DNA of 20,621 bases, taken from a virus. Below, piece by piece: positions 3,955-20,621 of this stretch (the stretch's first letter is position 1; every line of letters begins with the position of its first letter). The notes beneath the pieces are model-generated. The model did not search any database and was not told the DNA's origin. It saw nothing but the letters and a program-made list of their open reading frames with translations. The position numbers and the translations under genes are program-made. Location: positions 1 to 20,621 of IMG/VR virus record IMGVR_UViG_3300045999_003774; one strand, written 5' to 3'.

Positions 3955-4436
3955 TACTTCACCAGTCCAAGAGTGCGAGCGGCTGCGGTCTGCCCGTAAC
4001 CGATCTTGATTCCGAACGGCTCCTCTGCCTGCTTCTCCGTGGCTCTTGGCGCAATGCCAGCAACCATGCCGCCGATGTCAGGCATGACCGATGCGCGCTC
4101 CGCCTGCGAACGGTAGATATCTTCCTCTGCCTGCGACTTGGCCATCATGTCCGCGACGCTTCGCTGGGTGGCCTGTTCGGCCCGGAACGCCATGACAGGA
4201 GCGTCGAGTTTGGCCTGAAGACCCTGCGTCGATCCAAGAATGGCCCCAGCAAACGAACTGTATTCGTTGCCCGGCTGATATGCAGCAAGACCCGTGGCAA
4301 GCCCACGAAGGTAGTTGCCAGCAAACTGCGCGGTTCCAGACAGGAACGAATCCCAGCCAGACTTCGACTTGGCTTCAACCTGTGGAAGCGTCTGAAATGC
4401 CGCACGGGCTCCAAGACCTGCCTGAAACATACTCAT
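3954..4436 (-). CDS. Putative small internal virion protein, 160 aa
   Basis: A 160-residue protein starting at an ATG preceded by a very good GGAGGT, which lies in the last codons of the upstream gene; the upstream TAA overlaps the start. An in-frame ATG two codons later is less likely. Residues about 30-72 are Gly/Ala-rich and weakly hydrophobic (FLSGTAQFAGNYLRGLATGL), followed by a Gln/Ala/Glu helix at about 84-115. The C-terminal 30 residues are Gly- and Lys-containing. No known domain is recognisable. Small size, amphipathic glycine-rich sequence and position among similar genes suggest a minor ejected or core protein, by analogy to the small internal proteins of P22- or T7-like phages; this is inference from context. 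Confidence 0.72.
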   Translation of the reverse strand: MSMFQAGLGARAAFQTLPQVEAKSKSGWDSFLSGTAQFAGNYLRGLATGLAAYQPGNEYSSFAGAILGSTQGLQAKLDAPVMAFRAEQATQRSVADMMAKSQAEEDIYRSQAERASVMPDIGGMVAGIAPRATEKQAEEPFGIKIGYGQTAAARTLGLVK

Positions 4437-5245
4437 TACTGACCTCCTCCAAAGGCTCGTCCAAACGGCGAAAGCGCCTGCCCAAACCCACCGCCGATTC
4501 CTTCGGCAAGCGCACCAATTCCAGCGCCGAACAGAGCACCACCAAAGGCATTGCCAGCAGCCATGTCCTGTTGCGCCTTATTCATTTCTGCGGCATACCG
4601 CGCATCAATAGGACGAGTCATAAACCCAAGACTCGATTGAAGTTGCGCCGCCCGAGCAGCCTGCGCCGCCGTGGTGTATTGCTGATACTGTCCACTCTGA
4701 TATTGCGCCGATCCAAGGCCAGCCGCAAACAGGCTCTGGGCACCCTGCTGTTCCATCTGTGCAAGCGCAGATGCCTGTGCCATCTGGGCCGATGCAAGCG
4801 TCTGTGCATACTGCTCCTGCACGGCTCCTGCCTGAAGTGCGCCCTGCGCCGCCACAGCATTGACTGCTGCCTGACCAAATGTGGTGTTAGAAAGACCAGT
4901 CAGCATTCCGCTGACTTGCTGTCGCGCAACCGATAGGTCAGTTTGCTGCTTGAGTAGCGCAAGCGTTGCATCGCGCCCGCTCGCAAGCGTCTGATACGCC
5001 TCCTGCCCCGCCGCACGAAACGCCTCGCGGGATTGCGCCATTAGGCTGCTGTACTTACCCACAGCATCGTTATATGCCTGTGAGTAAACCTGCGCGTTGG
5101 CGGTCCGTTCCTTTAGAAACTGATCAATGATTTTGCCATACTCGGCGTCCGAATATGTTCGTACACCAGCATAAGCCCTTTCCATCTTTTTGATGGCTTC
5201 CCCATAGTCCGTTTCTCCACCAAACAAGTTGCTGAAGAGGCCCAT
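4436..5245 (-). CDS. Putative internal virion protein, Ala/Gln-rich, 269 aa
   Basis: A 269-residue protein beginning MGLFSNLFGG, with its ATG overlapping the stop of the nozzle-like gene (TGATG). Residues about 15-225 are almost wholly Ala, Gln, Ser, Met and Tyr in helical pattern, including a Gln/Tyr cluster near residue 185 (QYQSGQYQQY). The last 45 residues form a Gly/Ala/Phe-rich hydrophobic tail (FGGALFGAGIGALAEGIGGG) that could enter or cross a membrane. The short amphipathic N-terminus, long Ala/Gln helical body and glycine-rich end recall T7 gp14-type and other ejection proteins that form a channel in the cell envelope. The family cannot be fixed by eye, so that role is inferred from composition and neighbours. 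Confidence 0.78.
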   Translation of the reverse strand: MGLFSNLFGGETDYGEAIKKMERAYAGVRTYSDAEYGKIIDQFLKERTANAQVYSQAYNDAVGKYSSLMAQSREAFRAAGQEAYQTLASGRDATLALLKQQTDLSVARQQVSGMLTGLSNTTFGQAAVNAVAAQGALQAGAVQEQYAQTLASAQMAQASALAQMEQQGAQSLFAAGLGSAQYQSGQYQQYTTAAQAARAAQLQSSLGFMTRPIDARYAAEMNKAQQDMAAGNAFGGALFGAGIGALAEGIGGGFGQALSPFGRAFGGGQ

Positions 5246-7398
5246 CAGTACGTTCCCTTCACATTTTTTGTGTGCTGCATAGCATCTACAAGCACAGCAA
5301 TTCGCTCAAGTGCCCACGGTACACCATTACTTTCCAAACGCACATAGGCCGATTGCTCGCGAACTCGACAACGCAATGCGTCATTTCGTCCCGGGATCAA
5401 GGTTCCAAGGTTTGTGCGTGTAGCGGTCTCATATACAGCAGAACTCACAAGTAGCCGGGGCGCAACGATGTCACTCGGAAGCAAAAAGTTGTTGTCCCGT
5501 TCTTCAGATCGGTATAAATATGTTCCAGATGGCGTTTGTGCTGATGTATTGCCAAATGTTTCGTCGCGTCGAAATTGCGACTCAACACTCCCAACTGTTG
5601 GAAGGTGTTCCAAATACCAATCGTAAGTCGGCGTACCCGGCGTGGTATTACGAAATCGATTCGTAGTTTTTGCGTAAGTACGGTCGCCCGGATCCGTAAT
5701 CAACGAATCAGCAGTGTTGTAAGTTCCAGCAATTTCGGCATCAAACAACAGATCAAGTGCCTGATCTACTGCGGTACTCCACACCGTATTTGGAGCGCCA
5801 CAGTCATACGTTGCTGTTGGTGTAAAAGCAAGATGAGATCCACCATCTACAACAACAAGTGGGTACAACGGATCGAACTGAACCGTTACCGATGCAATAT
5901 TTGCTCCAATGGCCTCTTCGGCTGTTTGACCAGACAAAATCGTCGCAACTGGTCCCGTAAGTTGCTGGACTGGTGTTGAAAAGATTGGATTTTCAATAGG
6001 AGAATCCATTGACAATTCAACTCTTACATCACGAATCATCACTTGTCCAAGCGAAGGTTCGACAACAGGTCCAAGAGTGAGCACGCTATACACGCGCCTT
6101 ACCGCAGCAAGGGCGTTGGTAACTGAAAATTCTGCCGCTGCTCCTTTGTAGCCAACAGCGGCTTGGCCATCTACTCCAGACACAAGATCACGATCAAACC
6201 ACGCAATGAATCCGTTGCTGCTTCCGAACGCGATAAGCGGAGATCGAGCATCTCCAAATGGAAATTCTCCACAAACAGTTGGGGCAGCAAATGATGTCCA
6301 GCCAGTACTCCACGGCCAAAACGAATCAGTTGTTTGGTTGTAAATTAGGTGAACACTTGAATTCGGCTGGTCTGTTCGCGATAACACCAAATATATGTTT
6401 TGCGCTTCGGCGTCGAATCCAAGCGAGCAATTGAGATTCTCAAACGACTGCTGTTGAAAAAATGTATCAAGTCTTCCGCCAGTAACGCGATTTGACTGCG
6501 TGACTTGAAAGTCGTTTGGACGAACCCGATACAGCCCATCTTGCGCAAGCATGTACATGGTCTGCGAATCGCTTGCACACCATGCGTTCGCACTAACAAT
6601 TCCTACTGATCGAGACAATTCGATGATGCGTGCTGTATCAATTACAGGATCTGCTGTGAGATACGAAATGGAATGTCTGCCAGCAAACATAAGTCCTGAT
6701 TCACCAACTGGAATCAATGCGACAATTGGTTCACCGGGAACTCCAAACCGCGTTGAAGACGCCCCCGCTACGGCGTCGTGAATATTGCCAGCACTTGGGT
6801 GCCAATCATCCGGGTTATTGATGTGACTCAAAAACCAATTATTTGGCGACGCCTTTACGCCAGACAAAGCCAAGCGTCCGCCAAATCGCACCAATAGCGT
6901 TGCATAATCACCAGCCGAACCAACGTTTGCATATGGTCCAGTCCAATCAACAACCGTCGGAGAAGATGCCGTAATATCAATTTTGCGATACCTTGCCCCG
7001 TCTGCAAAGTAGCAAAACTGTCCAAATACGGCTGCTCCAATTGATCCAGTGCTATTCATCGCGGCCAGCGCGCCGCGACCGCAATGTTGTTTTGTCCCGC
7101 CATTGTCAATTACATAGACCTCTCCTCCAGCAACAACAACACATCGCTGCGTCAGCGTCCCGCTAACGTATGCGTCTGCGCGAAGTATCACCTGCACCTG
7201 CCGTGTTATGGCCGTTGGGGTGTCGTTGAATGTGTACGCGCCAAGCAGCGGTTTGCGTTTTCCTAGCCGAAGTTTTCCCTTGAATGTGTCGTACGGAACA
7301 ACATTCATGCATTCGGATGTAAACCCGGCAAGCAGCGACGAATATCCAGCATCGATGCTGATTCCGCGATACGGAATTGCGACTTGGTTATACGGCAT
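5245..7398 (-). CDS. Tail nozzle / tail tubular protein B-like, 717 aa
   Basis: A 717-residue, beta-rich protein starting at an ATG that overlaps the tail-fibre stop (TAATG). The N-terminus (MPYNQVAIPYRGISIDAGYS, then ECMNVVPYD) has the look of podovirus tail-hub proteins, where a short N-terminal segment contacts the upper ring. Residues about 85-430 contain recurring blade-like patterns, such as VVVAGGEVYVIDNG, FCYFADGARYRKID, TMYMLAQDGLYRVRP and LIYNQTTDSFWPWS, as expected for a beta-propeller. The C-terminal third is a different beta-rich domain. Known nozzle proteins (T7 gp12, P22 gp10 class) combine a propeller with added domains and form the hexameric end of the short tail. A receptor-binding role for the C-terminal part is possible. 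DNA here is much less GC-rich than the head genes. Confidence 0.75.
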   Translation of the reverse strand: MPYNQVAIPYRGISIDAGYSSLLAGFTSECMNVVPYDTFKGKLRLGKRKPLLGAYTFNDTPTAITRQVQVILRADAYVSGTLTQRCVVVAGGEVYVIDNGGTKQHCGRGALAAMNSTGSIGAAVFGQFCYFADGARYRKIDITASSPTVVDWTGPYANVGSAGDYATLLVRFGGRLALSGVKASPNNWFLSHINNPDDWHPSAGNIHDAVAGASSTRFGVPGEPIVALIPVGESGLMFAGRHSISYLTADPVIDTARIIELSRSVGIVSANAWCASDSQTMYMLAQDGLYRVRPNDFQVTQSNRVTGGRLDTFFQQQSFENLNCSLGFDAEAQNIYLVLSRTDQPNSSVHLIYNQTTDSFWPWSTGWTSFAAPTVCGEFPFGDARSPLIAFGSSNGFIAWFDRDLVSGVDGQAAVGYKGAAAEFSVTNALAAVRRVYSVLTLGPVVEPSLGQVMIRDVRVELSMDSPIENPIFSTPVQQLTGPVATILSGQTAEEAIGANIASVTVQFDPLYPLVVVDGGSHLAFTPTATYDCGAPNTVWSTAVDQALDLLFDAEIAGTYNTADSLITDPGDRTYAKTTNRFRNTTPGTPTYDWYLEHLPTVGSVESQFRRDETFGNTSAQTPSGTYLYRSEERDNNFLLPSDIVAPRLLVSSAVYETATRTNLGTLIPGRNDALRCRVREQSAYVRLESNGVPWALERIAVLVDAMQHTKNVKGTY

Positions 7399-8450
7399 TA
7401 CGCGGTTCTAATAGCAAAGATCAATCGATCAACACCGCTGTTTACAACGTGAATAGTCCACGTTCCACTCGCAGGCCGAAGATAATAAATTCCCGCAGCA
7501 TTCACCTTTGACCACCCAAGTAACGGGAAAGCACCAAATTGCTCTACAGCAGTAGCATTTCCAGTATTGAACGCCGTTGAAGCAGTGGTAACACCAACTA
7601 GGTGCCCTTGCGTGGTGTTTCCTGAATTCACAGGGCAGTTGAAAATTGTGAACCCATGCACCTGATCTTTAGCAACAAATACTTGTGTGATCGTTGATGT
7701 TGCTACTTCAGTAAGTCCCAACGTCGTTCGTTGCGCGGCAGTGTCCGCATCATCTATCAATGCCCGACCTGCCGATGTGCATGTGATCTCTTCCACCACA
7801 CCAGCGCCAGCGGTGCTCCTTCCGAGCAACCTGTCTGTAGCACTTACGTTTTGAATCTTGGCGTACGTGACGTTTGAGTTCGTGATCTTTGCCGTAGTAA
7901 TGGCCAAATCGCGAATGTGATCCGTCGTGACCGCACGATTGGCGTCCGTTGACGCGTCATCGCGCAACTTGTCTGCGGTCACTGAATCATTAGCAAGTTG
8001 TGCTGTTGCAACAGATCCGTCGTGGTTCGACAAAGCAACCCACGTTGTATAGTTCGTACCATCCCAAGCACGAGAAAAGACACGCTGTGTCTTTGTAGAA
8101 AACAATACTTGCGTAATGTTTCCACTAGAAATGCGAGTGACAATTAGCACTCCCGGGGCGTCTGATGCAGGAGTCCAGCCGGATGGCACATTGGTGACGA
8201 CCGCAGCCAACACCTCATATCGACCCTGCGCTCGATAGCCAGTTCCGTTTAGGTCCGTACCAGCACCAGTGATCTGCGGATAGGTCGCACGCGAATACGC
8301 CAAAGAGTTCCACGCTAGCGTCCCATCACCAATCTTGAAGTTGCCAGTATCGGTTTCAAACCCAATCTCCCCACCCAGCAACACCGGGTTATTTGCGGGG
8401 TTTGCCCAGTCGGCGGCGAGGCCACGGCGGATCTGCAACTTGATTGCCAT
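7398..8450 (-). CDS. Tail fibre / receptor-binding protein with Mtd-like N-terminus, 350 aa
   Basis: A 350-residue modular fibre protein; AGGAAA eight bases upstream supports the ATG at 8450. Residues 1-52 match the phage fibre attachment module seen at the N-terminus of Mtd-type proteins: IKLQIRRG, LLGGEIGFETDTG, FKIGDGTLAWNSL. Residues about 62-142 look like a pyocin-knob domain (GRYEVLAAVV, GVLIVTR, TQRVFSRAWDG, YTTWVAL). A stalk with repeated SVTADKL / LAITTAKI / NVTYAKIQ units follows (146-202), then the common fibre motif DRLLGRSTAGAG with CTSAGRALIDDADTAAQRTTLGL-like sequence (to about 246). Residues about 250-350 form a beta-rich C-terminal domain that is the probable tip. It is the likely trimeric spike or fibre recognising the host; the ligand is unknown. 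Confidence 0.88.
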   Translation of the reverse strand: MAIKLQIRRGLAADWANPANNPVLLGGEIGFETDTGNFKIGDGTLAWNSLAYSRATYPQITGAGTDLNGTGYRAQGRYEVLAAVVTNVPSGWTPASDAPGVLIVTRISSGNITQVLFSTKTQRVFSRAWDGTNYTTWVALSNHDGSVATAQLANDSVTADKLRDDASTDANRAVTTDHIRDLAITTAKITNSNVTYAKIQNVSATDRLLGRSTAGAGVVEEITCTSAGRALIDDADTAAQRTTLGLTEVATSTITQVFVAKDQVHGFTIFNCPVNSGNTTQGHLVGVTTASTAFNTGNATAVEQFGAFPLLGWSKVNAAGIYYLRPASGTWTIHVVNSGVDRLIFAIRTA

Positions 8451-9257: not shown

Positions 9258-9872
9258 TTAGACAAAATCGTTGGTTTGAGTCGGTTCAGGAAACACCCGA
9301 ATGCTATTTGGTTGGGAGATGGATTGATATAGGTCCATGTCTTCCGCATAATGGTCGGCCACCAGCGTTTTTTCTTCCTCAGTCAACACTGGCTTTGGAC
9401 GAACCGCGATATTGCACTCCGGAAACTCATCAAGATCCAGAAGTTCTGCCATCTCATTGACATGTTCTGGAAACCGGAATAAATGGGTTTCGCCACGGCA
9501 ATTATTGATTTGCTTGGCAAAGTGAATGTCTTTGGAAAACACAAAGTTGCGTCGCGGAGTTTGTATGACAGCGCCATTCAACAGCGAATTCAACGCCATC
9601 TCTACCGTCACATTGAAGTGCGCTACGCCGCTGCAAAATCTGTCGATCGGATTGCGAATTCCAATGACAACAGGTCGGAATGGTTGCGTTCGTTGTGGGC
9701 ACAGCGAGTGCCACTGCACGTGTTGCAGCGTTTTCCCTTCCGGGTAATGCCCATTCACAATCGATTGATAGACCACAGGATGCCACCGCTTGATGATTGC
9801 GATCACCATGCTGCTGCTTCCCGCCTTTGCGTTGAGCGGAACCATGAATGGACCTGCATCAAAGTATGTCAT
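9258..9872 (-). CDS. Sulfotransferase-like protein, 204 aa
   Basis: Sulfotransferases move a sulfate group from PAPS to a sugar, lipid, protein or small molecule. The two PAPS-contact motifs are visible: a P-loop-like N-terminal strand-loop at residues 14-22 (NAKAGSSSM, Lys16) and the 3'-phosphate motif at 68-82 (VVIGIRNPIDRFCSG; Arg73, Pro75, Arg78, Ser81). Later parts also fit the family: FAKQINNC and HLFRFPEH near 118-137, and PKPVLTEEEKTLVADHYAED near 159-178. At 204 residues it is compact. I chose the ATG at 9872, which overlaps the previous gene's stop as ATGA; the longer reading frame begins inside that gene and encodes atypical sequence. The acceptor is unknown. Modification of host envelope glycans or of the phage's own fibre are both open possibilities. 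Confidence 0.78.
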   Translation of the reverse strand: MTYFDAGPFMVPLNAKAGSSSMVIAIIKRWHPVVYQSIVNGHYPEGKTLQHVQWHSLCPQRTQPFRPVVIGIRNPIDRFCSGVAHFNVTVEMALNSLLNGAVIQTPRRNFVFSKDIHFAKQINNCRGETHLFRFPEHVNEMAELLDLDEFPECNIAVRPKPVLTEEEKTLVADHYAEDMDLYQSISQPNSIRVFPEPTQTNDFV

Positions 9873-10921
9873 GTCGTTAGAACCACATATCCCTTCGCGG
9901 TAGCAATGGATGGCGTGCAGGTCGCTGCGCCGGGATTGGTTGCGACATGGATAATTGGAGTTCCGATTGGCGCTGTAACGGGAAGTAGGTCTGCAAAAAT
10001 CTTGTCGATTGCAGCCGCGCCAAGTTGATTTAGACGTAGATCGAGGGCTGGTGTAGGTGTGGATCCGTACTTGCCGTCTGTTGGACGACATCCAACCATG
10101 TCTACAGTTGTCAGATTGTTGTTAGAGAGAGAAATCTGACTTGCATATTCGCAATTCCTCAAACTGATGTCGCCCAGCGATGCGTTGCCCATAATGTAAA
10201 GTTGTCGCACATTTGTGTTGTCGCACAACACTGTGTGTACAAGTGGATTGCTAACCACGTTGAGTGTGCCACCCGGGGACTGGTAATCAATCTGACGCGC
10301 GTTGACAGTTGTCAACGCGGTATTACTTGCAATGTAGATGTTCGATATGTTGGATTGCCAACTCAAATCCATCTCTACGGCATCCGTGTTCACCGCAGAC
10401 AATGCAGTGAATTTTACCGCATCAAGACGTTGCCATAATCCGTTGACTTGCAGGAGCCCGCACACAAACGGATCATCTGGAAGTAACAGTACGGTATTTG
10501 ACGAATTGATTACGACGCTGAGTGCTGTTGAATTATTCGCAAATGCACGCACGTCAAGTTCAGTGGCATTCGTCGGAACGCTGATATCAGACAACTCACC
10601 AAACTTTCCTCCTAGTGCATTGGAGGACATTATGGTTACTGGCTTTTTTCCGGCGGGAGCGCCACTCAATGATTTTGCGAAGGTGATGTTTACCAGCGGG
10701 TTTCCACTACCTTGTAAAGAGGTAGTGTTGTCCCAGAACGTAGCAAAGCCATAACCCGTGTTTGATTTTGCCGTTATCGTCAGGGTGCCAGCAACATTAT
10801 TCGCTGACACAAGTGCTTCGCCAGTTCTTGCTGGAAGCGTGAATGTGGCGCGCGCCTGACGCTCTCTGAGCATTTGGCGAGCACCGGAGTCGTTTGGAGT
10901 TCCACGAATTCTAAATCGCAT
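9869..10921 (-). CDS. Leucine-rich-repeat-like virion surface protein, 350 aa
   Basis: A 350-residue protein starting at an ATG that overlaps the upstream stop (TAATG). Residues 1-30 are basic (RFRIRGTPN, MLRERQAR). From about 95 to 330 there are irregular repeats of 20-24 residues in the style of bacterial LRR/BspA-like proteins: TELDVRAFANNSTALSVV, AVEMDLSWQSNISNIYIASN, LYIMGNASLGDISLRNC, ISLSNNNLTTVDMVGC and LDLRLNQLGAAAIDKIFADL. The C-terminus (ATNPGAATCTPSIATAKGY) resembles the cap after such repeats in phage and Bacteroidetes proteins. LRR surfaces bind other molecules, so host adhesion or decoration of the virion is plausible. The position between structural genes and upstream of the fibre supports a virion component. 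There is no signal peptide or membrane segment. Confidence 0.75.
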   Translation of the reverse strand: MRFRIRGTPNDSGARQMLRERQARATFTLPARTGEALVSANNVAGTLTITAKSNTGYGFATFWDNTTSLQGSGNPLVNITFAKSLSGAPAGKKPVTIMSSNALGGKFGELSDISVPTNATELDVRAFANNSTALSVVINSSNTVLLLPDDPFVCGLLQVNGLWQRLDAVKFTALSAVNTDAVEMDLSWQSNISNIYIASNTALTTVNARQIDYQSPGGTLNVVSNPLVHTVLCDNTNVRQLYIMGNASLGDISLRNCEYASQISLSNNNLTTVDMVGCRPTDGKYGSTPTPALDLRLNQLGAAAIDKIFADLLPVTAPIGTPIIHVATNPGAATCTPSIATAKGYVVLTT

Positions 10922-12811: not shown

Positions 12812-14077
12812 TCACGTGTCGTTGCGGCGGACGGGAGAAACAATTCCGTGGCGCTGACGGCTGTTGCAGAACAGATTCCACCAGCAGTCAACGGGCTGCA
12901 CCCAACTAAACGGCTGATTGGGATGACGCATCACGTCGTGCTTCTTCATGTAGCGCGTCGTGTGGAAAATCGGGGTAAGGTACTGGCCGTTGATAAAGTA
13001 GTAGCGCGGTCCCTTATCAATCGTGTTCGCGTTGGTTTCCGTCTGGCCAACGGTAGTCGATGCCGAAGTCGGGGCGTTTCGACCCGTAAGCGTGTCGGTC
13101 ACCGCCGAAGTATGCGCCGGGAAAATTGCCGCGTCATCAAGGTTGGCGCAGTACTCAAGCGGAATTCCACTGAACGTCGGCGTGTTGTACGCAGCATCCT
13201 GAAGGTTGACGAGAACATCATTTTCCGCACGAAGGGCACGCTTGTACTGGTTCATTCCAACGCGAGAGCAAAGAATCATCTGGCGCTGGAAGTTGGTTTC
13301 CTCAAAGTACTGACGCTGCGTAAGAGGCGCCTTGAACTGCACCTTGAGGTACATTTCGTCCATCGCCGGAAAAAGCCCACCAATCAGGCGCGTTCCAGCG
13401 TTATGGTTCGACATGGTTGCACTCGTAGGCGCAGCATTCTGGTCTGCGTTACGGTCATAGAACGAAACCTGATTCGTCCAGCGAGCATCGACCGTGGGGT
13501 CGATTCCGAGAACCGTGTTTCCGAACCCAGTGGGACGACCACCACGATCACCAAACGTCGTGATCGAATTGAGTTGTTCGGTGATGAAGCAGGGAATGGA
13601 GTACGGCTCGCGTCCGCTGGACGACTCAATCGCGCTGCCCTGACCCTGCGAAGCAGCCCACAGGTCGTTTTCCATGCCGTTGAGCATGGAAGTCCACATG
13701 CGCATTTCCTTGACGCGCTTGAGGCGCTTATAGAGCGTCTTCGGATCGCCCTCGTTGAGTTCGACCTCCTGATCAGTCCACGCCATGTAATCCATGCTGA
13801 AGCGCCACGCCGCCGACAGCGTGTCGGTGACCTGCGGGTTCATCCACGTGAACGTATCGTTGGGCTGGTACTTCTGGTACGTGGCGGCATCGTCAAAGAC
13901 AATGACATCACGAATCGTCGTTCCGGACTGAATGAGAGTTTCGCTTGCCTTTTCCTTCAAAAGACGGGAAAGGACATAGTTGTTCTTGACCGCCTCCATG
14001 ATGACGGCATCTGCGGACTTCAGGTATGCAGGGCCAGTGCTCTGCATGAAGTCATTGAACTGGGTAATTGCAGGCAT
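12812..14077 (-). CDS. Major capsid protein, 421 aa
   Basis: A 421-residue protein preceded by a strong AAGGAG nine bases upstream of the ATG at 14077, in the expected place after the scaffold gene. The N-terminal region (FNDFMQSTGPAYLKSADAVI, then SGTTIRDVIVFDD) and the middle (DYMAWTDQEVELNEGD, RMWTSMLNGMENDLWAA) have the pattern of HK97-fold capsid proteins from podovirus-type and environmental phages. Later segments such as FKAPLTQRQYFEETNFQRQ and the C-terminal QPVDCWWNLFCNSRQRHG also fit. A prohead protease is not visible in the window and no N-terminal protease-like domain is fused, so assembly probably depends on the separate scaffold protein. Family identity rests on pattern and gene order, not on a search. 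Confidence 0.88.
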   Translation of the reverse strand: MPAITQFNDFMQSTGPAYLKSADAVIMEAVKNNYVLSRLLKEKASETLIQSGTTIRDVIVFDDAATYQKYQPNDTFTWMNPQVTDTLSAAWRFSMDYMAWTDQEVELNEGDPKTLYKRLKRVKEMRMWTSMLNGMENDLWAASQGQGSAIESSSGREPYSIPCFITEQLNSITTFGDRGGRPTGFGNTVLGIDPTVDARWTNQVSFYDRNADQNAAPTSATMSNHNAGTRLIGGLFPAMDEMYLKVQFKAPLTQRQYFEETNFQRQMILCSRVGMNQYKRALRAENDVLVNLQDAAYNTPTFSGIPLEYCANLDDAAIFPAHTSAVTDTLTGRNAPTSASTTVGQTETNANTIDKGPRYYFINGQYLTPIFHTTRYMKKHDVMRHPNQPFSWVQPVDCWWNLFCNSRQRHGIVSPVRRNDT

Positions 14078-14090
14078 TTTGCCTTACTCC

Positions 14091-14987
14091 TTATTTGCGT
14101 AGCGCGGTGCGAAGGCGACCACCTTCGCCCGAAAGAATCTGGTCAAGGATCAGGTCGTCCTCGTCACGAACAGGCGGCTTCACTGGGGCTGTGTTTCCCT
14201 TTGTTGGGGCAGTCGGCTGTGCAGCGCGTACGTTTGTGGGTTGAGCACTTGCTGATCCAACGATTTCCGAGTAGGCAGCAGCGGCAAGAGAATCGACGCT
14301 TGCATACCCGCCCGGCTTGGCAGACCCGAGTTCCGACATCTTGGCCAATACCGCGTCCCACGTAGGAGACTTTGCTCCATATTGGACACGGAGTGACGCA
14401 TCAGCAGCGCGGGCCTGCGCCAACAGCAGTTGTTCTTGCATCTGCTGCTGCTGGGACACGAAGGCAGCACGAACAGGGGCGACGAGTTCTTCGCCGTACA
14501 CCTGTGCCATCTGTGCAAACGGATCAGCCTTGGTCGGTTCGGCTGCAACAGGGGTGTTGCCCTGCGCAGGCGTCGCCTGCTGGCTCGTCGCAAGACGTGC
14601 CTCCATCTCCTTCAATCGACCGCCGTACGAGTCAACATCCTTCTGGCGCTTCACAGCCGCATCCGCCCATTGCTGGAGGATTTCTGGAGAAGTGCTGGAA
14701 ATGACCTCATCGGGTACGCCGTCCCTCTTCAGGATCTTGGCAACCGCTTCACGGTCGATGGTGGGAACTTCCGGCGTGGTTTCCGCAGCGACCGGAGCCG
14801 AGGCTTCGGTTGGCTGGGGTTCTTCTGCCGCGAGTTCATCAAGCAGTCTCTGCAAGACAATGTCATCTTCATCTAGCGGTTCAGCCGTGACGGCCTCGTT
14901 AGATGGCGAATTGTCCTGCTTGACCTGCTCCTCCGCCCCACTGGACGGAGTCTCGGTCTGCACGATGGGTTCAGCATTGCTGTCCAT
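14091..14987 (-). CDS. Scaffolding protein candidate, acidic, 298 aa
   Basis: A 298-residue, Glu/Ala/Gln/Pro-rich acidic protein immediately before the major capsid gene, the usual site of the scaffold. AGAGGA about seven bases before the ATG supports the start. Residues 1-75 are acidic and disordered; about 78-140 and 160-215 are helical (EAVAKILKRDGVPDEVI; FVSQQQQMQEQLLLAQARA). The last 30 residues turn basic (GRLRTALRK), as in P22-type scaffolds, whose C-terminal basic helix binds the coat. The motif DEDD(I/L)(V/I)L occurs twice, at 39-45 and 275-281. In such phages the scaffold shapes the procapsid and leaves before or during DNA packaging. Confidence 0.82.
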   Translation of the reverse strand: MDSNAEPIVQTETPSSGAEEQVKQDNSPSNEAVTAEPLDEDDIVLQRLLDELAAEEPQPTEASAPVAAETTPEVPTIDREAVAKILKRDGVPDEVISSTSPEILQQWADAAVKRQKDVDSYGGRLKEMEARLATSQQATPAQGNTPVAAEPTKADPFAQMAQVYGEELVAPVRAAFVSQQQQMQEQLLLAQARAADASLRVQYGAKSPTWDAVLAKMSELGSAKPGGYASVDSLAAAAYSEIVGSASAQPTNVRAAQPTAPTKGNTAPVKPPVRDEDDLILDQILSGEGGRLRTALRK

Positions 14988-14989
14988 GT

Positions 14990-15292
14990 TCAGTCCTCTG
15001 CTCGGATGTAGCCATGACGAGCCGCAACATTGCGTTCTTCACGGCGACTATGGATGATTGGGTGGCCAACCGAATCGCACTTCACACCCGGAAGATTTCT
15101 CGGAAGTGCGCGGCTGACATAGGGATACGTGCTGGTGGTGAAGTTCGGGCTGACCTGCGCTGTGCTTGCAATTCGCGTCACGGGCCCAAACATCGGATGG
15201 TCGTAGACGGCACCGATGGTCGGCGCTTCGCTCATGGCGAAGACGCATTCGATGATCTGGCCTTCTGCTGTCTGAAATTCGTATGCTGGCAT
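14990..15292 (-). CDS. FmdB-like small protein lacking zinc cysteines, 100 aa
   Basis: A 100-residue protein whose ATG overlaps the portal stop (TAATG). The N-terminus (MPAYEF, then IIECVFAMSEAP, then FGPVTRIAS) follows the layout of FmdB/zinc-ribbon proteins, MPxYEY...C..CG.....SMS.P...CP.CGG..RR, but the two CxxC knuckles are replaced by TAEGQ- and DHPMFG-type sequence. The C-terminus (GHPIIHSRREERNVAARHGY) is a second conserved-looking block of the kind found after FmdB-like modules in phage proteins. The function in phages is not established. Position between portal and scaffold suggests a head-assembly helper. Confidence 0.75.
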   Translation of the reverse strand: MPAYEFQTAEGQIIECVFAMSEAPTIGAVYDHPMFGPVTRIASTAQVSPNFTTSTYPYVSRALPRNLPGVKCDSVGHPIIHSRREERNVAARHGYIRAED

Positions 15293-17061
15293 TACATTCG
15301 CTCACGCGCTCCAGCAATCGCCGCCTGCGCTGCGGGCGGAACTGCTGGTGCTTCACCTGTAGGAGAAGGGGACGCTGCGGTTTGCGCAACACCCCCCTGC
15401 GCCGGATTTTGCGGAGCCTGCATGGCCTGCCGCATCTGGCGCAACTGGCTGTCATCAATGAACTCGGCCATCTGGGGCACGTTCTGGGCGTCGCCAAGGA
15501 ACCCGAGCAGGTCCTTCCACTTGACCCATGGCATCATCGGCATGGCCTGCGCCGCCTGCGTCACCACTTGGAACGTCTCCACCGCCCGGCGCGACGCCAG
15601 CATCTCGCTGGTCCGCTCCATGCTGTAGGCGTCCACATCGATCTGCATGTCCTCCCATGCCCCAACTTTCAAGCCACCTTGAAACACGGGGTCCGCGATC
15701 CCCATGGCGGCAGTGTCTTCCCCGCCGACCGGGAGGACGATTCGGTTGTCGTGGAACATGTACCACGCCACATTGCGCAACATGAGGTCCATGGAATCCT
15801 GAAATGCGCGCTTCAGGTGGGCAATACGCATGGTGCTGGCGGATTCTGCCACCGCCACCTCCGTTGCGCTGGCCGATCCGGCGATGTTTCCGCGCATGGC
15901 GTCCGACATGCCAAGCGCACGGTCCAGCCGCTCCTTGGCCGTCTCCACCGACTGGATGTGCTGGTTCGTGCTTCCGCCGATCTCGACGGGCTGAAGGCTG
16001 CGAGCGTCAAGTCCAGCCTCCGCAAAGACATACATGTCCGGCGCGTTGACCACGTCCTGTAGGAACTTCGGGTTCTTGGCATCCCCGACCAGCATGCGCT
16101 TGTACCGCTTCTGGTTCTCCTGCTGGCTCTTGGCCATGTCGTTGCAGTACTCGATCTGGTTCCGGCAGGCAACGATCGGGGACAGCGGATAGGGGTCGTT
16201 CGGGACCGTGAATGCGCCGAACATCGTGTATGGACCCGTCGGGGGGCCGTAGTACGGGAGCGGCTTGCGAATCATCTCGCACTGGCAGTCGTTGGAACTG
16301 CTCTGGTACTTCGCGACCGTGTAGATCGTGCCGTTCACAAGCGCCTGATCCGTCATCTCGTCCAGCAGTTCTGCCGCCATCGGGTCCAGTTCTGGCACCC
16401 AAATCTCATAGATGGCGAGTTCGTACCGCTCTGGGATGTCGCGATTGTCGCGCAGTTCGTCCACCCCGTTGTTCGTGGCCAGCATCTCGATGACTTCCTT
16501 GTTCCACGTCTCGTCCGATTCGGCGCGACGCAGCAGGTCATCCTTGTCACCGATCCAGACATGGCCCATGAAGCGGGCCTCTTCCCAGTGCATGGCCGCA
16601 GGATCGAGGATAAACCTCGCAGGATCAATGCGATAGATGCGCGGAAGGTAGGGGCCGTCGGCATCCCACTTGCGTTCCGCTCCCTTGGGCTCGTTCACCA
16701 CCAGCCCGATTCCCCAGCCAAGCAGCATGTCAGTTCCGATGCGTTCGATGGTGGAACGCAGGCGGGTCATCTTGGACCACCGATTCAGTGCCGCCTTCAT
16801 CGCAACGCACGCCGTGCGCTGGACTTCCGGGCGGGCGCTCGTCACGCGGACCTTGGGGTTGTCATGCACGATGCGTGGAAGCACCATGCTCACATAGGCA
16901 TGCACCGCGTTCTCTGGGTGGTCAATGCCATGCCCATCGCGGTATCCCTGCCCAGTGAACCACTCACGCAGTTCCTTTGGGGTGGCAAGGTGCTGATCGC
17001 GGAACCACTCGGCGCGATCGATCTCGTCACGAATTCGCGAGATGCTGGAAAAGTCAAGCAT
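15292..17061 (-). CDS. Portal protein, 589 aa
   Basis: A 589-residue portal, which forms the dodecameric ring at the capsid vertex through which DNA passes. The N-terminal pattern ENAVHAYVSMVLPRIVHDNP (about 50-69) and the middle DMLLGWGIGLVVNEP, RIDPARFILDPAA and EARFMGHVWIG are typical of podovirus-type and environmental-phage portals. So are ACRNQIEYCNDMAKSQQENQ and the long helical stretch with SATEVAVAES (about 410). The C-terminus is Pro/Ala-rich and probably disordered (last 45 residues). The ATG at 17061 overlaps the upstream gene by eight bases and has only a weak ribosome site (GGTAAAG), suggesting coupling. It stands downstream of the terminase genes and upstream of the scaffold, as expected. 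Confidence 0.9.
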   Translation of the reverse strand: MLDFSSISRIRDEIDRAEWFRDQHLATPKELREWFTGQGYRDGHGIDHPENAVHAYVSMVLPRIVHDNPKVRVTSARPEVQRTACVAMKAALNRWSKMTRLRSTIERIGTDMLLGWGIGLVVNEPKGAERKWDADGPYLPRIYRIDPARFILDPAAMHWEEARFMGHVWIGDKDDLLRRAESDETWNKEVIEMLATNNGVDELRDNRDIPERYELAIYEIWVPELDPMAAELLDEMTDQALVNGTIYTVAKYQSSSNDCQCEMIRKPLPYYGPPTGPYTMFGAFTVPNDPYPLSPIVACRNQIEYCNDMAKSQQENQKRYKRMLVGDAKNPKFLQDVVNAPDMYVFAEAGLDARSLQPVEIGGSTNQHIQSVETAKERLDRALGMSDAMRGNIAGSASATEVAVAESASTMRIAHLKRAFQDSMDLMLRNVAWYMFHDNRIVLPVGGEDTAAMGIADPVFQGGLKVGAWEDMQIDVDAYSMERTSEMLASRRAVETFQVVTQAAQAMPMMPWVKWKDLLGFLGDAQNVPQMAEFIDDSQLRQMRQAMQAPQNPAQGGVAQTAASPSPTGEAPAVPPAAQAAIAGARERM

Positions 17062-17820: not shown

Positions 17821-18107
17821 CAGTCTGCTTCCTCGATGATCGGCAGGAACGACCAAATGGGGGTTCCCTCGCCCACATATGCACACACGATGTTGTGCTC
17901 CAAGTGCTCGACCGCGTCGTCGTGGTCCATGCCCTTGTCGTTGACCAAGACCTGAACCACCCGGTGCGTGTCGTAGACAACCCGCCACGCGCCCGTCTTC
18001 ATGTCCCGCGTCAGGCCAATGACGGCATCGTCAAGACCATCAGCGAAGATGATCTCTTCCTCGTTCTCGTCGGCCCAATGCCTGACCCTGTCAGCGTTTG
18101 CAATCAT
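17820..18107 (-). CDS. Hypothetical acidic phage protein, 95 aa
   Basis: A 95-residue acidic protein. I chose the ATG at 18107 because it overlaps the terminase stop as ATGA and GGGAGG lies ten bases upstream; the longer start at 18122 sits inside the terminase gene. The sequence has an N-terminal charged part (RHWADENEEEIIFADGLDDA), a strand pair (IGLTRDMKTGAWRVVYDTHR), a helix (MDHDDAVEHLEHNIVCAYVG) and a hydrophobic end (TPIWSFLPIIEEAD). The phrase DAVEHLEHN..CAYVGEGTP is familiar from hypothetical proteins of many environmental phages. Function is unknown. Its acidity contrasts with the basic small proteins that follow. Confidence 0.78.
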   Translation of the reverse strand: MIANADRVRHWADENEEEIIFADGLDDAVIGLTRDMKTGAWRVVYDTHRVVQVLVNDKGMDHDDAVEHLEHNIVCAYVGEGTPIWSFLPIIEEAD

Positions 18108-20212
18108 CGAAATACCTCCCAATGGCGCAAGAGGTCTCCTGCCGTGCCGGGAGCGTACGACTCCTGCTCCCCGCCCGGAACAGGTGCATCATCCATGGCC
18201 ATCCACGCCAAGGCAAGCGCAATCACCCTATCGCCATGGTTCTCACGCGCACCCGTGCTCTCGTCCCGAAGCCTGCCCGGGATCACCCGCCCATTCCCAT
18301 CCAACACATACGCCAACATCTCGTCCAACGTCCCCGTGCATGGGATCACCATCTCACCCTGCTGGACCGACCTCGACAGGTTTCCAAGCAACAGGCGCTT
18401 GCTCTGCTCGCTCGACACCCAGCCAACCCGGTCAATGATCCCGTGCGTGGTCTTGCCCTCCTTGCGAGGCTTCCACACACGATGGAACCGCTGGGCCTCA
18501 AAGTCACGCTGCAAACTCTGGCCGGGCCCGTTCACCTCCCACGCCACCACCGCCTCCCGATACCACCCACGACACACCTCCGCCACCTCCGCAGCCAAGT
18601 CCGCAGGCGTGATGTTGGCATCCACCATCATCGCCACCAACCGCTTGTCCGTCACGTCCAACACCGCCACCGCACTCGCGTGGTTCCCCGTCCCGTAGGC
18701 AGGGTCAATCCCCACCGCATACGACGACACCACCGGGTCCTCGTCACCCCACAACCGCCACCGACCAGTCGGGCTGTCCACCCACTTCCCACGAATCCAG
18801 TTCGCCCGGCGTGGCTCCCGGCCAAACTCCCGCCGATGACTCGTAATCGTCACGCTCGGGAAGAACGCCGCGCCAGCACCCATCGCCTCCGCAAACACGT
18901 TCTGCGCCAAGTCCACCTTGTCACGCTTGCGCAACTGGTCGGCAAGCCATGGCGTCCAGATGTAAGTGCTTCCAACAACCCCACTTATGCTGCCGTCAAA
19001 GTCAACCCGGGTCTCCGCCCCATGCGCCTTCTCCGGATGCTGGTAGTACAGCATCTCAACCAACTCCGGGTTCCCCGTCCCACGCGCCTCGCCAACCAAC
19101 CTGTCATACCGCGTCCCATACCCAATCGGAGTGGAAACCGCGATGCGACAAGAGGTTGTGTCAGATGCCGACCGCCACGCAGCGTCGTCGTCCTCAAGCG
19201 CCGCGAACTCGTCAAACAACACAAACGTGCGCCGACCACCACGGCCAATGTGCGCGCCACTCGCCTGACCCGCAATCGTCGCCCCACTCTGCGGATGACG
19301 CAACACCATGTGCTGCCGATACTGACCACCCTTGCGCAACTCCGGAACAGGACAGGGAAGCAACCACCCGGGCTGACTTGCCAATAAGTAATCCACCTTC
19401 CAGAACAGGCTGTCCGGGTCGCCCGTCCGGTCCACGTTGTCCTCCACGCGACTCACCAACAGACTCTGCCACCCATGGAACATCCACCCCCAGACCGCCA
19501 ACCCCAACACCACCCATGACGCACCCATGTCACGGCTCTTCCGAACCACCACGTCACGACCATCGCCCACGCACGTCCGCAACCGACGGATCGCCCCAAT
19601 CTGCACAGGCCAAGGAATGAACGGTACGTCAGGAACCGCGACAGGCTTCTCGCGACCGTCAAGACCAACCTCCTTGACCCGGTACGTCCACGCCGTAAGT
19701 GCAAGCCACGCCGCAGGATCCGACTTGAACAAGGCGTGCAAATCCGCCCGCTCCGCTGGCGATGCGCCCGTCACCACAAACTCCCGTAGCCGCATCACAT
19801 CAGCCAAGTCCGCAGGCCACGAAGGGAGGCATAGGGGATCCGTACTGGGGGAATAGGGGGCTCCGTGACGCAGACGGGGGTGGGACTCCGGCGGCGCGGC
19901 AGGCCCGGGGGATCCGGACGCAGGACCCCCCCGGGGGGAGGGGTCGGCCCCGGCGGGGGGGTGGGCGGGGGCTGGGGCTGGGCTGGCCTTGGCGGGTCGT
20001 GCCTTGGCGCGGGCGTACCCCCGGTTCTGCATTCGCTTGCGCTTGACGGCGGCGCGGGTGGCGGCTGCTCGCTCTGCGGTGGTGGGTACCCCGCCGGGGT
20101 GGGCGGCTTGCCACGCTGCCCACGCCTCGCCGCCTGCGAGCCGTGCGGCCTTGCGCTTGGCCAGCCAGTCTTTCGATGCGCCTCTCGGGCGTCCCCGCCC
20201 ATCGTCAGCCAT
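18104..20212 (-). CDS. terL: Terminase large subunit, 702 aa
   Basis: The motor that translocates DNA into the procapsid and cuts it. ATPase motifs: Walker A variant RKSRDMGASW (residues 224-233), Walker B VLFDEF (331-336) and coupling motif AVSTP near 358-362. Nuclease acidic residues: Asp503 in GIDPAYGTG, Glu559 in VAWEVNGPG and Asp661 in ENHGDR, the RNase H-like set. At 702 residues it is longer than usual, because a basic N-terminus (about 1-70) and a Pro/Ala/Gly-rich linker (about 70-120) precede the ATPase. I chose the ATG at 20212, which overlaps the small-terminase stop by eight bases with GGAG seven bases before; the reading frame continues 48 codons upstream, but only inside that gene. 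Confidence 0.95.
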   Translation of the reverse strand: MADDGRGRPRGASKDWLAKRKAARLAGGEAWAAWQAAHPGGVPTTAERAAATRAAVKRKRMQNRGYARAKARPAKASPAPAPAHPPAGADPSPRGGPASGSPGPAAPPESHPRLRHGAPYSPSTDPLCLPSWPADLADVMRLREFVVTGASPAERADLHALFKSDPAAWLALTAWTYRVKEVGLDGREKPVAVPDVPFIPWPVQIGAIRRLRTCVGDGRDVVVRKSRDMGASWVVLGLAVWGWMFHGWQSLLVSRVEDNVDRTGDPDSLFWKVDYLLASQPGWLLPCPVPELRKGGQYRQHMVLRHPQSGATIAGQASGAHIGRGGRRTFVLFDEFAALEDDDAAWRSASDTTSCRIAVSTPIGYGTRYDRLVGEARGTGNPELVEMLYYQHPEKAHGAETRVDFDGSISGVVGSTYIWTPWLADQLRKRDKVDLAQNVFAEAMGAGAAFFPSVTITSHRREFGREPRRANWIRGKWVDSPTGRWRLWGDEDPVVSSYAVGIDPAYGTGNHASAVAVLDVTDKRLVAMMVDANITPADLAAEVAEVCRGWYREAVVAWEVNGPGQSLQRDFEAQRFHRVWKPRKEGKTTHGIIDRVGWVSSEQSKRLLLGNLSRSVQQGEMVIPCTGTLDEMLAYVLDGNGRVIPGRLRDESTGARENHGDRVIALALAWMAMDDAPVPGGEQESYAPGTAGDLLRHWEVFR
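19933..19982 (+). other. Clustered G-runs, potential G-quadruplex, opposite the terminase linker
   Basis: The plus strand has seven runs of three or more G in about 50 bases. The densest part (19955-19982) is G7-T-G3-C-G5-CT-G4-CT-G3, which satisfies the usual four-run quadruplex pattern with very short loops. It is opposite the Pro/Ala/Gly-rich linker codons of the large terminase, so the simplest cause is proline codon bias (CCC). The message carries the C-rich strand, so any quadruplex would form in DNA, not RNA. Confidence 0.5.
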
Positions 20213-20621
20213 CGCCCGGCTCCGGCAGGGCTGGCGGACTTTGCTGCTCGGCGCGAAGTCTCGCAGCCGCAGCGAACCTCTCCAGCATCTCCAGCGCCCT
20301 GCTGGCGTTGCCGTCCTCGACGCGCAGCCCGCCGGACACCTCGACCTTCTGCACACCGTCCCGGTACCGCCCGGGCTTCAAGCCCCGCAGCCGGAGCGCC
20401 AGCGCGTTCAACTGCACCTGCGAACCCGGCGACGCGCCGGACGCAATGCCGTCCAGCGTCTCCTCGTGCCGCTCGGCCACCACGCGCTCGGCGGTCGCTC
20501 GCGCCTGCGCGAAGGCCGGGTCCGCCTTCTCCCAGCCCACGGGAGTGCTTTCCGCCACGCCAGCAGCAGCGCAAGCGCCCCGCCAGCCTGCGCCATCAGC
20601 CCACGCTCGCAGCCACGCTGA
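20205..20621 (-). CDS. terS: Terminase small subunit, N-terminus beyond the window
   Basis: The frame is open from the right edge, so the first residues are missing; 138 are visible. The visible start, RAWADGAGWRGACAAAGVAE followed by STPVGWEKADPAFAQA, matches the helix-turn-helix of small terminases (typical form: G-x-x-x-x-AC-x-AAGVSRST-x-x-x-W-x-x-x-DP-x-FA-x-A). The GTG at 20558 would split this domain, so it is not the true start. A helical middle (ERVVAERHEETLDGIAS) and RLRGLKPGRYRD follow, then VSGGLRVEDG and a helical, acidic end. The protein recognises phage DNA and loads the large terminase. It ends eight bases inside that gene (ATGGCTGA overlap). Confidence 0.8.
   Translation of the reverse strand, partial: SAWLRAWADGAGWRGACAAAGVAESTPVGWEKADPAFAQARATAERVVAERHEETLDGIASGASPGSQVQLNALALRLRGLKPGRYRDGVQKVEVSGGLRVEDGNASRALEMLERFAAAARLRAEQQSPPALPEPGDG

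Follow-up and report, generated by a model that had tools for sequence, protein, structure and literature searches.

The analysed stretch of DNA (the window) comprised 20,621 nucleotides and corresponded to positions 1 to 20,621 of the IMG/VR virus record IMGVR_UViG_3300045999_003774. Its recognisable virion genes lay on the minus strand in the order terminase, portal, small ORF, scaffold-like gene, major capsid protein (MCP), cement-like protein and SU10-type adaptor. The genes around the scaffold-like ORF were as follows:

18104-20356, minus strand: terminase
15292..17061, minus strand: portal protein, 589 aa (phrog_156 portal, E 5.1e-6)
14990..15292, minus strand: small 100-aa ORF in the portal-scaffold interval, with no Pfam or PHROG match
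14091..14987, minus strand: scaffold-like protein of 298 aa, beginning with ATG, coordinates including the stop, located between the portal and MCP
12812..14077, minus strand: MCP, 421 aa (phrog_9953 major head protein, E 5.8e-11)

The MCP matched phrog_9953 in two stretches, the best of which was aa 23-141. The phrog_9953 family includes the MCPs of the Myxococcus phages Mx8 and Mx9, and its MCP thus placed the window in the Mx8-type capsid lineage. No Pfam or PHROG match at E<=1 was obtained for the 298-aa protein; hence, we infer from its gene position, charge and predicted helicity that it is a capsid scaffold. As is general for podoviral and P22-like scaffolds, its gene lay between those of the portal and MCP, and the product was mostly helical, elongated and highly charged, with nine predicted helices and a net charge of -19. 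A Foldseek search of the PDB with the model of this protein found nothing (best E 2.9). When the window scaffold, MCP, portal and a 717-aa tail-region protein were used as tblastn queries, no relatives were detected in 50,697 phage records, and no prophage relative was found in a search of genome contigs. Many relatives of the lineage occur in IMG/VR, and the lineage seems to be uncultivated.

Two short similar motifs, hereafter called hooks, were located near the ends of the scaffold-like protein, which was divided into the following parts:

14841..14873, minus strand: N-terminal hook, aa 39-49 DEDDIVLQRLL, within the predicted helix 40-54
14757..14840, minus strand: variable linker joining the N hook and core, aa 50-77, pN/pS 0.67, pLDDT <50 at 56-75
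14250..14756, minus strand: core of helices (aa 78-246), interrupted by low-confidence residues at 137-152
14166..14249, minus strand: Pro/Ala-rich linker joining the core and C hook, aa 247-274, delimited by AlphaFold and pN/pS
14127..14165, minus strand: C-terminal hook (DEDDLILDQIL-SG, aa 275-287), with a helix predicted at 276-285
14094..14126, minus strand: C tail (aa 288-298), short, variable and basic (net charge +3), present behind the C hook alone

The initial annotation had pointed to two similar acidic motifs 236 residues apart, and this was confirmed. The C-copy 11-mer DEDDLILDQIL (aa 275-285, 14133-14165 on the minus strand) started 236 aa after the N copy and was identical to it at 6 of the 11 positions, the similarity being above chance in both matrix and shuffle tests. 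The ungapped, composition-corrected comparison of the first 80 residues (N80) with the last 35 (C35) gave a z of 6.4 (p 0.0033), and none of the 300 shuffles scored as high; the plain BLOSUM62 matrix yielded a z of 4.2 (p 0.0075). The matrix tests covered 23,336 13-mers from all six frames of the window, taken from ORFs of at least 60 codons. With a matrix built from 53 close-family N copies, the window C copy ranked second of the 23,336 and was preceded by the N copy only; it scored 17.0 bits, the next best match listed being 5.9. Likewise, a matrix derived from the C copies alone placed the window N copy second of 23,336, behind the C copy only, at 12.1 bits, with 3.2 for the next best listed. 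No third copy of the motif stood out in the six-frame matrix scan of the window.

Both motifs consisted of an acidic cap and a hydrophobic [VI]L..[LI]L cluster, and the net charges of the two 11-mers were -3 and -5. The earlier description of an acidic-amphipathic helix held in part: the acidic and predicted helical character was upheld, whereas strong amphipathicity was not, the hydrophobic moment being moderate apart from that of residues 42-52 (rank 9 of 288). Since SG and the basic tail follow the C hook only, the two ends of the window protein are not fully equivalent.

An AlphaFold model was built on A3, an alignment of 14 sequences, and had a mean pLDDT of 68.1. The helices 40-54 and 276-285 (block pLDDT 82 and 81, respectively) were isolated and adjoined by low-confidence linkers, pLDDT being <50 at aa 4-34, 56-75, 264-266 and 296-298. 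The linker at aa 50-77 showed a mean amino acid identity of 33%. Docking motifs usually look like isolated helices on flexible linkers, and the modelled end helices of the window protein resemble such motifs.

Scans of IMG/VR with the scaffold and MCP returned 100 loci encoding 64 different scaffold sequences. Both motifs were present in all 52 distinct full-length close relatives at a spacing of 234-240 residues, the regexes for these counts, as well as for those of the distant motifs below, having been written post hoc on sequences already inspected. The homologue alignment thus retained both copies, and relatives keeping a single one were not seen among these 52. The residues invariant in the A3 alignment were D39, D42, L45 and L48 in the N copy and D275, D278, L281, I284, S286 and G287 in the C copy. 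The pN/pS was 0.23 for the N motif and 0.25 for the C motif, compared to 0.47-0.75 for the tails and linkers and 0.31-0.33 for the core. Judged by these ratios, both copies are under purifying selection, with a constraint as strong as that on the folded core. The two ends of one clade were nearly identical (N DDDDSILDQLLGS / C DADDDVLDQILSG). A 262-aa protein from locus L063 (about 3988-4776) was below the length limit and was left out of the count of 52; its scaffold frame was lost near the C end, leaving the C hook out of frame, due to either a sequencing error or a genuine truncation.

Beyond the close family, MCP relatives at 42-46% identity carried a scaffold gene in the same place, and its ends were altered yet paired. 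The ends were ENEDAVLDRLL / DREDAVLDILL in locus L205 and TPEQQQDRILMELD / TPEEREDAVLRILE in L175; the post-hoc regex matched both ends in 29 of the 33 distinct scaffolds of these relatives, L173 being a partial record. A profile alignment of the window group with the L196 type extended over residues 34-290 (E 3.8e-25) and matched N hook to N hook and C hook to C hook, and that with the L168 type ran from residue 76 onward (E 5e-14). The MCP of L168 matched phrog_9953 nearly over its full length (E 7.7e-16), and the MCP of Mx9 matched it with an E of 5.4e-131.

In Mx8 and Mx9, the genes immediately before the phrog_9953 MCP, which belongs to the same family as that of the window, are p47 and Mx9_p80, annotated only as p47 or hypothetical. 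The motif of their products (SLRxxLEAA.) was unlike that of the window, yet it again occurred at both ends. The ends of the Mx9 protein (EESLRGSLEAAMEKHS / DESLRGTIEAAWANSS) matched plainly (z 8.2). Matching ends were also visible in Mx8, where the automatic test chose a linker match instead (p 0.798). Further scaffold ends were TRRFLEEQFDKYE / TRQILERKFAELE in the faecal record MT835830 and SRLDTIKRAAADL / SRNEAIAAAAAEL in Microcystis phage Mwe-JY13. Homology between the window group and the Mx8-type scaffold was not supported by hhalign (probability 14.6%; 26.2% for an intermediate group).

The hypothesis was recorded before 80 further Mx8-type loci were fetched; of these, 6 lacked an ORF upstream and 8 were truncated. 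A strict hook regex matched both ends in 33 of the 57 usable distinct Mx8-type scaffolds (39 at the N end and 44 at the C end), with 0 in shuffles. A variant motif was again paired in L297 (DRREQLLDAFK / DRRSQLMEAYK). No clear end pair was seen by eye in L241, L242 and L246, the pair in L235 was weak, and the match in L244 looked accidental. In addition, L242 is the Methanosarcina virus MetMV, an archaeal virus whose MCP matched the Mx8-type capsid family at 26.6% identity (E 4e-14), this being one of the three loci with no clear pair in the scaffold-position protein. In the Mx8-type contigs L255 and L317, the ORF immediately before the MCP was HNH homing endonuclease-like rather than a scaffold, which we presume from a DHIVPL motif. 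These two, as well as L293 with a spurious 106-aa ORF, were omitted from the plain BLOSUM62 test, and L249, whose C end is disrupted, was omitted from the representative set onward.

Whether the N and C ends of the same chain are more alike than those taken from different chains was assessed with 45 representatives of <45% identity drawn from 158 distinct scaffolds. Upstream start extensions were cut back to motif-like starts for the representative set and for the self and cross scoring. The mean self score was 24.8, compared to 19.6 for the N end of one chain with the C end of another. The self mean was reached by none of 20,000 permutations, and this remained 0 without the 5 or 10 strongest cases; self exceeded the row median in 37 of the 45. 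N80 gave a z of 8.2 against the last 35 residues and of -0.6 to 2.1 against other 35-residue windows, a comparison that controls for lineage-wide composition; C35 gave 8.7 against residues 1-60 and -1.8 to 1.1 against later windows. The self excess therefore belongs to the extreme ends only. It was also obtained for the 22 representatives fetched after the hypothesis had been recorded (5 of 5,000 permutations reaching the self mean) and for the group C records alone (n=13; 0 of 5,000). The controls gave a z of -1.5 for MCPs and 1.7 for other ORFs (256 of 5,000). No such excess would be expected had two ancestral copies drifted independently.

For the 10 representatives of groups A and B alone, self was not above cross (2,695 of 5,000 permutations), since a single motif type is common to the A and B lineages. 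In a set of 34 Mx8-type proteins, the co-variation of N- and C-hook distances was no greater than MCP relatedness accounts for (partial r 0.03; 1,783 of 5,000). When the hooks were compared with MCP columns, a weak partial covariation peak (0.30) was observed at alignment columns 24-54. Individually, 17 of the 45 representatives reached p<=0.05 in the composition-corrected test. The corresponding counts in plain BLOSUM62 shuffles were 41 of 53 in group A, 15 of 33 in B, 6 of 15 in C and 25 of 58 in D, this test being noisy because the linkers are rich in Ala, Pro, Ser and Glu. Hence, the composition-corrected test and the self-versus-cross permutations were used in its place. Matching hooks at both ends were found in Mx8-type scaffolds by the Mx9 pair, by the family permutations (0/20,000) and by the strict regex. 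As far as sequence comparison can tell, the end pairing is a trend across the wider scaffold family and extends beyond the lineage of the window.

Further, known scaffolds were subjected to the same end-pair test, and matching ends were absent in those of T7 (p 0.76), P22 (p 0.361), phi29 (p 0.904) and SU10 (p 0.17). Searches of the open-licence literature yielded no account of a phage scaffold with matched ends. Known scaffolds attach to the MCP by a single end, which in 80alpha, as in P22, is the C end. P22 gp8 shares with the window protein a gene between those of the portal and coat, an elongated helical form and a short helical element near the C end. It has a single coat hook, a C-end helix-turn-helix that we take to be basic, and no matching N-end element. 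The AlphaFold model of the window protein had one short helix near each end. A family relation to P22 gp8 was not found: profile A3 searched against PDB sequences gave one chance-level non-phage match (E 0.66). The P22 C-end element is named the HTH hook in PMC12005531, and the MCP is described in PMC6813328 as being bound by the P22 C-terminal hook and the phi29 N-terminal hook.

For phi29 gp7, binding of the coat protein by the N end is reported in PMC6813328 and PMC12749128. This protein (L330) has 98 aa, one hook and no second copy at the C end. Its residues 6-17 (EEHEDILNKLLD) ranked third of 23,378 12-mers under the matrix of the group-B hooks. The two higher matches, one within the P22 terminase gene and the other midway along T7 gp9, caution that matches of this kind arise by chance too. 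The resemblance at the gp7 N end is suggestive of a link to a real coat-binding hook and is a lead rather than a proof of homology. According to PMC6813328, SPP1 gp11 carries one hook per chain, and its dimers form double hooks between capsomeres. By this description, SPP1 is like the window protein in the proposed bridging of scaffold and shell through two coat-binding hooks and differs in obtaining the two hooks through dimerisation rather than on one chain.

We proposed that the 298-aa protein is a double-ended scaffold of an Mx8-type, podovirus-type phage, with two equivalent hooks for a common partner, most likely the MCP; this is considered fairly probable. A helical core, probably self-associating, would bear two short acidic-hydrophobic helices on flexible linkers, one near each end, and the docking site would be of one type for both helices, most likely situated on the MCP. 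While the procapsid assembles, a single scaffold chain could thereby keep hold of two coat subunits belonging to one capsomer or to different ones, and bridging by the two hooks may help to set the shell geometry. The coat protein as the partner, the simultaneous occupation of both hooks and the contribution of bridging to geometry are each presumed. Two equivalent contacts had also been suggested in the initial annotation; the equivalence was borne out by the joint conservation, the constraint, the predicted helices and the within-chain likeness across the family. As for the contacts, the structure prediction for the MCP (11-sequence alignment) had a mean pLDDT of 29.7 and no docking surface could be named, and MCP residues 1-48 had a net charge of 0, with no obvious charge match to an acidic hook. 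That the ends are alike despite a changing helix suggests that each molecule may grip the shell at two places, not one.

A double hook on two MCP subunits was favoured, with somewhat more than even confidence, over a division between coat and portal and over self-association. In the former case, one end, probably the C end, would act on the coat, and a similar helix at the other end would bind the portal or else an ejection protein. The presence of SG and the basic tail after the C copy alone is consistent with this, as is the known scaffold-portal contact of P22, made by stacking of the base domain against the portal wing (PMC12005531). However, that contact is described there for the base domain and not for a second copy of the coat hook. 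Moreover, with two different partners the ends could drift apart, whereas the ends of one chain were alike while the motif type varied among phages, and such a division is regarded as rather unlikely. If the N hook instead paired with the C hook of another or its own chain to give scaffold polymers or dimers, the ends would likewise be kept alike, and oligomerisation is described as general for scaffolds (PMC12749128). Both window hooks are acidic, which is unfavourable to mutual pairing, and the AlphaFold single-chain model, which says little on oligomers, keeps them as separate helices; such self-association is improbable.

It is very improbable that the likeness is a coincidence of acid-rich disordered ends whose helix-capping sequences are alike without a shared function. 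Both ends are indeed acid-rich, the hydrophobic moment is moderate and only 17 of the 45 representatives were significant singly. Against this stand the second rank in both matrix cross-checks, the conservation in 52 of 52 relatives, a purifying selection stronger than in the linkers and the restriction of the self excess to the end pair under composition correction and internal-window controls. The near-identity of the ends in one clade could also be due to a recent duplication or gene conversion that copied one end onto the other as a functionless hitchhiker. DNA copying between the ends was rejected, since the same codon was used at 43 of 124 identical residue pairs of the two ends, with 52.1 expected; codon sharing not above expectation indicates that the likeness is upheld at the protein level. 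Besides, the pS of 0.81 in the N motif marks it as old and the pair was found in very distant lineages, leaving this origin scarcely credible.

With regard to the favoured double hook, we give about an even chance to the broader proposition that a large podovirus scaffold family consists of single-chain double hooks, in which the helices at the two extreme ends are kept alike by selection for one coat site, both this site and the motif varying among phages. If true, this would depart from one shell-binding end per scaffold chain: one chain would clamp two coat subunits with a reach set by the core and linkers, and a two-hook chain would serve as a ruler or clamp built into the molecule. Scaffolds are mostly invisible in cryo-EM maps, and how they determine capsid size and curvature is a long-standing question. 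The paired ends may also help to annotate those fast-evolving scaffold genes which are missed by profile libraries.

Three other ORFs of the minus strand were also recorded in the window. The 350-aa ORF at 9869-10921 showed a weak leucine-rich-repeat character (LRR_6, E 0.036, below the cutoff). It was overlapped by a 277-aa ORF at 9258-10091, for which the Pfam search found nothing and whose RNPIDRF stretch we take to be reminiscent of sulfotransferases. The 350-aa ORF at 7398-8450 matched the Major tropism determinant N-terminal domain (PF18454, E 5.7e-13) and, by this match, likely encodes a tail or receptor-binding protein.
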